A stretch of DNA of 64,000 nt from an uncultured Chloroflexota bacterium. GTDB lineage: Bacteria; Chloroflexota; Dehalococcoidia; Lucifugimonadales; GCA-002694895. The number at the start of each line of letters is the position of its first letter. Position 1 is the stretch's first letter. The stretch spans positions 1-64,000 of the forward strand of contig CAJWSY010000001.1 in assembly GCA_913045935.1 (NCBI GenBank). Reading direction: 5' to 3'. Positions 21,931 through 24,151 of this stretch are shown in pieces. Made by a program: the position numbers and the translations under genes. The notes below the pieces were generated by a model. The model did not search any database and was not told the DNA's origin. It was given only the letters and a program-made list of their open reading frames with translations.

Positions 21931-22599
21931 TTGAATAAAATACAAATAAAGCAAAACAAAAAATTTGGATTAGCATCAAAATCACCTCGAAGAATTGAGT
22001 TGAGTAAAATGCTAGGGTTATCTTTTGAAATTTTGAACTCATCTGACGCTGAGCCCAAACCTGTATTAAATGAATCTCCTGTAGACTACGTAATAAGAGC
22101 AAGTGAATTTAAGGTTAAAAACAACGATAACATTCTTAATGAATTCGTAATTGCTTCAGATACAATTGTGTCATTAGAGAAAGAAATTTTGGGAAAACCA
22201 ATAAATAAGAAAATTGCTATTGATATGATTACAAAACTAAATAATAAAACTCATTTTGTAATAACAGCTATATCAGTATTAAATACTAATAACAAATCTA
22301 TTACGAGCCTAGTGAAAAAAAGTAAAGTAAAATTTAAAAATTGGAACAATTCTCAAATTTACAAATATATAGAAAATAATGACATTTTAGACAAAGCCGG
22401 AGCATACGCTATACAAGATAACAATAATTCTCCTGTAGAGGATTACACTGGTTGTAAATTAAATATTGTCGGACTTCCTGTCTGTAATCTCATTGAATTA
22501 TTAATATCAAATCAAGTAATTGAAAAAACAAATCTGCCTAAAAACAATATTTGCAAATTAATTGAATCATGGCAGGAGCGAGAGGGCTCGAACCCCTGA
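21931..22599 (+). CDS. maf: Maf family nucleotide pyrophosphatase
   Basis: FGLASKSPRRIELSKMLGLSFEI, IASDTIVSLEKEILGKP, DKAGAYAIQ; 3' end lies on the complement of the tRNA gene. Confidence 0.88.
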   Translation: MNKIQIKQNKKFGLASKSPRRIELSKMLGLSFEILNSSDAEPKPVLNESPVDYVIRASEFKVKNNDNILNEFVIASDTIVSLEKEILGKPINKKIAIDMITKLNNKTHFVITAISVLNTNNKSITSLVKKSKVKFKNWNNSQIYKYIENNDILDKAGAYAIQDNNNSPVEDYTGCKLNIVGLPVCNLIELLISNQVIEKTNLPKNNICKLIESWQEREGSNP

Positions 22600-22645
22600 C
22601 CCTTGGTTTTGGAGACCAATGCTCTACCAACTGAGCTACGCTCCT
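22570..22645 (-). tRNA. tRNA-Trp (CCA anticodon)
   Basis: Reverse complement AGGAGCGTAGCTCAGTTGGTAGAGCATTGGTCTCCAAAACCAAGGGTCAGGGGTTCGAGCCCTCTCGCTCCTGCCA; AGGAGCG/CGCTCCT acceptor, anticodon loop CTCCAAA, encoded CCA. Confidence 0.97.
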
Positions 22646-22713: not shown

Positions 22714-22864
22714 AAGTTCAAATACTGCCATGATTTACTATTTGAAAGAATATTCTAGCATATCCTGTAACTGTAGCCGATTGGCTTTAAGGGTTATTAT
22801 TTATTTATATGTGATATCTTCAGAGACTAAAAGGTGTGAATATTAGATAAGGTATAATTTAATA

Positions 22865-23278
22865 ATGGAATTGCTAAAACATTTAAAACAAAACGGATAT
22901 AGAATCACAGAATCTAGAAAAATGATATGTGAAGTATTAGAAAAAAATGTTCATTTTCATTTCAGTGTCAACGAATTATATAAATTAATTAATTCTGAAT
23001 CGACATCAATAGTTGATAAAACTACTATTTACAGAACCCTTGATGCGCTAGAAGAATTAGGATTATTAACACATTCTCATGTTCCACATAAATCTGCCAT
23101 CTATTTTATAAATGATAAAAATCAAAACGTACATTTAATATGTGAAAAATGTGACAAAATCATTGATCTTCCAAATAATTCAATTAATTCTATAAATTCA
23201 ATATTAAAAAATGAAACTCATTTCGAATCTATAAATAATAATTATGTTTTTGTTGGGACATGTATTAAATGCAAATAG
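22865..23278 (+). CDS. Fur-family metalloregulator, candidate Nur/Zur
   Basis: NGYRITESRKMICEVLEKN.HFHFSVNELYKLI....VDKTTIYRTLDALEELGLL, CEKCDKI, C-terminal CIKCK. Confidence 0.9.
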   Translation: MELLKHLKQNGYRITESRKMICEVLEKNVHFHFSVNELYKLINSESTSIVDKTTIYRTLDALEELGLLTHSHVPHKSAIYFINDKNQNVHLICEKCDKIIDLPNNSINSINSILKNETHFESINNNYVFVGTCIKCK

Positions 23279-23301
23279 TTATTGCACATCAATTGCAATA
23301 A
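23279..23301 (+). promoter_or_regulatory. Candidate Fur/Nur-family operator
   Basis: Perfect inverted repeat TTATTGCA-N7-TGCAATAA; also reads TTGCAC-N5-TTGCAA, close to the Streptomyces Nur box TTGCAA-N5-TTGCAA. Confidence 0.7.
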
Positions 23302-23321
23302 GGCCCTGATTTTAATATAAT
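23293..23321 (+). promoter_or_regulatory. Candidate promoter of the Ni/Co transporter
   Basis: TTGCAA (23293-23298), 17-bp spacer, TATAAT (23316-23321); -35 coincides with operator half-site. Confidence 0.6.
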
Positions 23322-23347
23322 CAAAATATAATTTTCAAATTTATAAA

Positions 23348-24151
23348 ATGTTAGATATATTAAATTTTCAAATAGTTAACTTTTCTAATTTAGAGGAAAC
23401 ACTGCCAGATTCAAAATGGATTACAATGTTTGTTCTTGGACTAGCTATGGGATTAAGGCATGCTACAGATGCCGACCATGTCGTAGCAGTATCTACAATT
23501 GTTTCAAAATCAAAAAATATATGGAGAGGTTTTTGGATTGGATCTTCATGGGGATTGGGGCACACTATCCCGCTATTTATTCTTGGTTTTATTATTCTTA
23601 ATCTTAGAGATTTAATGAATAATTATGAGAGTATATCTCACTACTTTGAGTTTATTGTAGCATTAATGTTAGTAATTTTAGGAATTCAAGCATTAGTAAT
23701 ATCTCTAAAAAACAAAGACTTAGTAGGTTTATTATTTAGCAGAGCATACAATTTTTTAAATTTACCTAAATTTAAAATTCATGATGACAATGAGCATGAT
23801 ATAGAAAGTGAAAAACATTCTAAATTCAAATTCCATAAACCTCACTTTAGGGTTAAATCATTTTCAATAGGAATAATACATAGCTTAGCTGGAAGTGCTG
23901 CAGTGATGCTGATGTTACTACCTTCAATTAACAATGTTTTTAAAGGTTTGTTATTCATATCATTATTTGGTCTTGGAACGATCATATCGATGTCATTGAT
24001 GACATTTCTTCTTTCTCTTCCATTTGCATTAGGTAATAATAATAAATTTTTAGTAAATGGATTAAATGCCGTTGCAGGGATATTAAGTATATTACTTGGC
24101 ATATTACTTGGCTCAGATATTATGCTTGGTACAGAATTTATTTGGTACTAA
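23348..24151 (+). CDS. High-affinity nickel/cobalt transporter, NicO/UreH type
   Basis: LAMGLRHATDADHVVAVSTIVS, WIGSSWGLGHTIPLF, FSIGIIHSLAGSAAVMLM, FGLGTIISMSLMT; membrane protein. Confidence 0.88.
   Translation: MLDILNFQIVNFSNLEETLPDSKWITMFVLGLAMGLRHATDADHVVAVSTIVSKSKNIWRGFWIGSSWGLGHTIPLFILGFIILNLRDLMNNYESISHYFEFIVALMLVILGIQALVISLKNKDLVGLLFSRAYNFLNLPKFKIHDDNEHDIESEKHSKFKFHKPHFRVKSFSIGIIHSLAGSAAVMLMLLPSINNVFKGLLFISLFGLGTIISMSLMTFLLSLPFALGNNNKFLVNGLNAVAGILSILLGILLGSDIMLGTEFIWY

Follow-up and report, generated by a model that had tools for sequence, protein, structure and literature searches.

The Fur-family regulator gene, the palindrome behind it and the NicO/UreH-type transporter gene described here probably form a one-target, Nur-like metal switch, with nickel as the most likely metal. 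Computation established the operator with its conservation and its place, the promoter-like hexamers, the kinship of the transporter, the presence of a nickel superoxide dismutase (Ni-SOD) and the proximity of the regulator to Nur. The window, i.e., the whole 64-kb stretch of DNA that was analyzed, belongs to a 76%-complete genome (G000) and contains the following features around the locus.

22570-22645, minus strand: tRNA-Trp (CCA), overlapping the 3' end of a Maf-like ORF (21931-22599)
22853-22858, plus strand: TATAAT, probable -10 hexamer of fur, 6 nt before the ATG; TATAAT-N6-ATG also in congeners
22865-23278, plus strand: Fur-family regulator gene (fur), 137 aa; Pfam FUR, 83.3 bits, with the nearest PDB chain (Nur, 3EYY) and an AlphaFold2 model in agreement
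23279-23301, no strand assigned: operator, perfect inverted repeat TTATTGCA-N7-TGCAATAA
23282-23287, plus strand: left half-site TTGCAC; TTGCAA in congeners, where it is their -35-like hexamer
23293-23298, plus strand: right half-site TTGCAA, doubling as the -35-like hexamer in the window genome
23316-23321, plus strand: TATAAT, -10-like hexamer for nicO, 17 bp from the right half-site
23348-24151, plus strand: NicO/UreH-type transporter gene (nicO), 267 aa
24155-24589, convergent to nicO: carboxymuconolactone decarboxylase-family gene, adjoining nicO in congeners G002 and G004 too

Operator and transporter promoter

The sequence at 23279-23301 (TTATTGCACATCAATTGCAATAA) is a perfect inverted repeat with 8-bp arms and a 7-bp spacer, and it starts at the base following the fur stop codon (TAG, 23276-23278), just as a preliminary description of this DNA had claimed. 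Its TTGCAC and TTGCAA half-sites are 5 bp apart. The Nur box of Streptomyces coelicolor is tTGCaa-N5-ttGCAA (PMC3919588, PMC7055735), and the resemblance to it that had been pointed out earlier holds, with one mismatch in the window and an exact match in three congeners. On its own, the palindrome is weak evidence, as arms of at least 8 bp arise in about 2% of simulated or shuffled AT-rich 69-bp stretches; a few dozen comparable inverted repeats were found within the window. A genome-wide search of G000 returned the whole 16-letter operator pattern only once, and the next-best matches had two mismatches and lay inside coding sequence.

Four congeners (G001 to G004) were found, and the genomes of the genus are 65-89% complete. 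The intergenic region was readable in three of them, as the contig of G001 ends inside fur. These three supplied four further operator copies (one each from G002 and G003, two from G004). In the alignment, all five copies, from four species, agree in every letter of TAGTTATTGCA and TTGCAATAA and differ in the spacer (CATCAAT, ACTAATT, AATCATT, ACGAAGT and ACCTTAT). As the arms are conserved among congeners while the spacer varies, the operator is taken as real, and comparison of the sequences supports its placement at 23279-23301, its Nur-box-like character and its position over the -35 region. The gene order fur, repeat, transporter is likewise kept in G002, G003 and both G004 copies.

G002 and G003 each have a single exact TTGCAA-N5-TTGCAA and G004 has two; all four are placed between fur and the transporter gene, and these three genomes contain no further exact copy. 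It had been proposed that a scan for TTGCAm-N5-TTGCAA would define a regulon. The scan recovered the sites between fur and the transporter gene, but no box was found near sodN at the G000 locus, and the one-mismatch sites beyond nicO that were inspected mostly fell within coding frames. Two one-mismatch sites in G002 (L205 and L206) had no 100-aa frame over them. The two fur-box-nicO copies of G004 (L114 and C18) have the same arms and may reflect a duplication or a mixture of strains in the assembly.

With 17 bp between them, the right half-site (23293-23298) and TATAAT (23316-23321) match the promoter consensus at 10 of 12 positions, in agreement with the earlier observation that the second TTGCAA doubles as a -35 hexamer. 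This pair of hexamers alone proves nothing, as the promoter scan found 10 sites versus 7.3 in shuffled sequence. In G002 and G004, TATAAT lies 17 bp past the left TTGCAA, and TAAAAT is found at the same distance in G003; the window differs from its congeners in that the -10 hexamer is 17 bp past the right half-site, not the left. As the operator nevertheless covers the -35 region in every species read (window, G002, G003 and G004), a simple reading is that repression would occur by occlusion of the promoter. For fur itself, a leaderless transcript is suggested by the TATAAT 6 nt before the ATG, which the congeners' copies have as well. The nicO gene of G004 likewise looks leaderless. The only element detected in an Rfam search of the leader was the tRNA.

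Transporter and nickel requirement

The transporter scored 33.6 bits against the Pfam family DsbD_2 (cutoff, 24.9) and 24.7 bits against NicO, below the cutoff of 27.7. Its HX4DH and GH motifs (H38, D43, H44, G71 and H72) are invariant in 74 sequences across the order. Annotated relatives among plasmid matches, at about 24-35% identity, follow ureEFGD in a urease operon (Peribacillus), lie between the urease gamma and beta genes (Thermus), follow hypD-hypE-hypB beside nikR (Afipia), follow hypDEAB (Bradyrhizobium) or lie near hypF and cobN (Runella). The Celeribacter relative is annotated as a nickel transporter but has no nickel neighbor genes, and the record of the Niallia relative contains no annotated genes at that place. 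These motifs and the relatives in nickel-enzyme loci bear out the earlier assignment of the downstream gene to the NicO/UreH type, and the transporter is, judging from sequence, probably a nickel importer. It shares its motifs and about 24-35% identity with the UreH/NicO nickel permeases of urease and hyp loci; in contrast to these, it is paired with a Fur-family gene and not with a urease or hydrogenase operon.

A Ni-SOD gene was found in every one of the five genus genomes, in 36 of the 40 genomes tested and in none of 14 controls. The G000 protein carries the hook HCDIPCGIY, and its gene is divergent to an S26-peptidase-like gene (named by sequence reading). Matches to urease alpha in the genus were weak and none was convincing. 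No CbiM importer was found in the genus and no ZnuA-family (PF01297) gene in its five genomes, nor was control of ZnuABC-type import, as expected of a Zur, found there. B12-binding proteins are present in four of the five genus genomes, from which it follows that cobalt is also used. NicO and Ni-SOD are uncorrelated, as the three f18 genomes tested possess NicO without Ni-SOD and Ni-SOD is nearly universal.

The regulator and its counterparts in the order

Only one Fur-family gene (22865-23278) was found in the 76%-complete window genome. The nearest solved chain to the genus regulator is S. coelicolor Nur (3EYY; 73.3 bits), followed by a chain at 49 bits, with Zur chains at or below 47.7 bits; Nur is also the nearest solved chain for the Furs of two relatives. 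The AlphaFold2 model (pLDDT, 89) has the Fur fold, and a fold search with it matched Fur, PerR and Nur alike, so that the Fur subfamilies were not separated.

In the alignment, histidines 70, 72, 75 and 90 of Nur are kept in the genus regulator. Among the M-site ligands of Nur, which we take to be histidines 33, 86, 88 and 90, position 86 is N or D and position 88 is N in the four species. Of the presumed Ni-site ligands, histidines 70, 72 and 126, the first two are kept and position 126 is N. At position 81, where the order's Furs mostly have E, the genus has F or Y. Neither the four-histidine M-site nor the three-histidine Ni-site described for Nur (PMC7055735) is therefore complete in the genus regulator, although the Ni-site of Nur is possibly a crystal artifact (review, PMC7055735). 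As positions 86 and 88 are N/D and N and E81 is replaced by F or Y, the predicted metal site is no copy of that of Nur.

The preliminary description had looked to phylogeny to place the regulator among Fur, Zur and Nur. The genus joins Nur at 93/95 support, unstarred, on a very long branch (8J6W in this tree is E. coli Fur), while approximately unbiased (AU) tests rejected neither a join with the order's Furs (P = 0.33) nor one with Fur/PerR/Zur (P = 0.14). As two M-site histidines are replaced and the tree gives no decision, we do not class the regulator as Nur. Its sequence is best read as that of a Nur-like repressor that controls one importer and probably responds to nickel.

The system resembles that of S. 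coelicolor Nur in the Fur fold and nearest solved sequence, in the identity of the Nur box with the congeners' TTGCAA-N5-TTGCAA, in the four shared histidines, in having a metal importer as its target and in the Ni-SOD encoded in the genome. However, histidines are absent at positions 86, 88 and 126, the importer is of the NicO/UreH type, the operator is placed past the end of the regulator gene and no box was found near sodN. Nur controls nikABCDE plus sodF, whereas one target was found per locus copy here. The Fur/Mur box of alphaproteobacteria, which regulates iron or manganese genes, has a similar TGC/A half-site (PMC9409073) but a different spacing rule; Nur is thus not alone in having such a half-site.

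Of 250 genomes in the order, 128 gave a match to the transporter profile. Pairing of fur and nicO occurs in many families, the transporter gene often coming right after a Fur-family gene. At such loci outside the genus, a sister box, TTGCA-N6-TGCAA, is located upstream of fur. With one locus counted per genus, it was found with at most one mismatch in 19 of 38 entries and with at most two in 31 of 38 (shuffles: mean, 0.5; maximum, 3); the one entry from the window's genus (L114) did not match. Other spacings yielded 0 or 1, except for N2, where the match is to the core of the sister box itself. The order's boxed Furs share with the genus the transporter partner (about 40-52% identity) and the half-sites. 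In contrast, they are only about 19-30% identical to the genus regulator, most keep H33/E81/H88/H90, and their box is upstream of fur with a spacer one base shorter.

Other importers can occupy the same slot. In NicO-free relatives (G007, G022, G025, G044 and G053), the gene after a boxed Fur encodes a ZnuA-superfamily binding protein, with AztC (Zn) and MntC (Mn) as the best profiles, all below the cutoff. G043 (L013 and L153) shows an importer swap, with CbiM plus a PDGLE domain behind the boxed Fur. CbiM as a general substitute importer was rejected, as it was found in 1 of 40 genomes. G009, G018 and G069 have the same regulator-importer order with the recognized box absent, and in Thermomicrobium roseum a metal ABC operon likewise comes after a Fur gene, again without the box. 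A box upstream of zinc genes had been named in advance as evidence against nickel; this was found in part outside the genus, before the ZnuA-superfamily genes, whereas no ZnuA-family gene was found inside the genus. As relatives can have a CbiM or ZnuA-superfamily importer after the boxed Fur, the metal may also be cobalt or another one. If one metal is sensed throughout the order, nickel or cobalt fits NicO plus CbiM best, which is an argument and not a test.

In f28, f32 and f34, several relatives with small genomes encode the transporter but show no Fur match next to it. At the AT-rich loci L063, L066, L067, L069, L072, L077, L078 and L080, a NicO-type gene has neither an adjacent Fur match nor a clear box, and uptake there is possibly unregulated. 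The Furs of family f18 (L095, L096, L098, L100, L102, L104 and L111), which are paired with NicO, have histidine-rich C-terminal tails (HSHSGH...).

Proposed mechanism and significance

We infer that the regulator binds the operator and represses the transporter gene in response to nickel. A dimer of the Fur-family protein loaded with metal, most likely nickel, would bind the 23-bp operator and sit over the -35 region of the transporter promoter and over its spacer, blocking RNA polymerase from the importer gene. At low nickel, the protein would release the operator and the importer would be made, and the imported nickel would feed the Ni-SOD encoded elsewhere in the genome. A Ni-responsive repressor circuit had already been suggested in the preliminary description. 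The operator, the NicO/UreH-type transporter, Ni-SOD in all five genomes and Nur as the nearest solved sequence speak for it; with histidines 86 and 88 replaced, a tree that gives no decision and ZnuA-superfamily importers in some relatives, nickel is no more than the probable metal.

The same repressor and operator could instead sense cobalt, and the transporter carry it for vitamin B12 enzymes, which we consider unlikely. The NicO and CbiM families handle nickel as well as cobalt, and the CbiM plus PDGLE behind the boxed Fur of G043, the B12-binding proteins of the genus and the Runella relative near cobN are all consistent with cobalt. However, most annotated transporter relatives are in urease or hydrogenase-maturation loci, one of them beside nikR, and every genus genome encodes Ni-SOD. 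That the regulator senses zinc or manganese, in the manner of Zur or Mur, and the transporter carries that metal is somewhat less likely again, given that no ZnuA-family gene was found in the genus genomes, the ties of the transporter family to nickel loci and the score of Nur relative to the Zur chains. This reading draws on the ZnuA-superfamily proteins behind several relatives' boxed Furs, on the similar half-site of alphaproteobacterial Fur boxes and on the AU test that leaves a join with Fur/PerR/Zur unrejected. That the palindrome is no operator at all, but a chance repeat or an element with another role, such as a fur transcription terminator, is very improbable. Such repeats are indeed common in AT-rich DNA, but five copies keep the arms while their spacers vary, no terminator-like site was found and loci across the order have a sister motif at the promoter of fur.

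A tentative and rather doubtful history of the switch may be considered. An ancestral nickel switch of the order, with TTGCAA-N4-TTGCAA heading a fur-importer operon, would have kept its box while swapping importers between three families that are unrelated to one another (NicO, CbiM and ZnuA-superfamily). In this small-genome genus, it would have been rewired, with the box behind the regulator, the spacer longer by one base and thus at the Streptomyces spacing, and the sensor site remodeled, either converging on Nur or acquired from it.

To our knowledge, little is known of nickel control other than by NikR and actinobacterial Nur, and a literature search of partial coverage brought up no account of a system of this kind in Chloroflexota. 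From isolate names and gene content, we read the congeners as marine and as probable members of SAR202. The locus predicts a Nur-like system with a single defined operator in uncultured marine Chloroflexota encoding Ni-SOD. Together with its counterparts in the order, it would offer a natural series, with N4 versus N5 spacing and two metal-site patterns, of how Fur-family proteins change their operator and metal choice.
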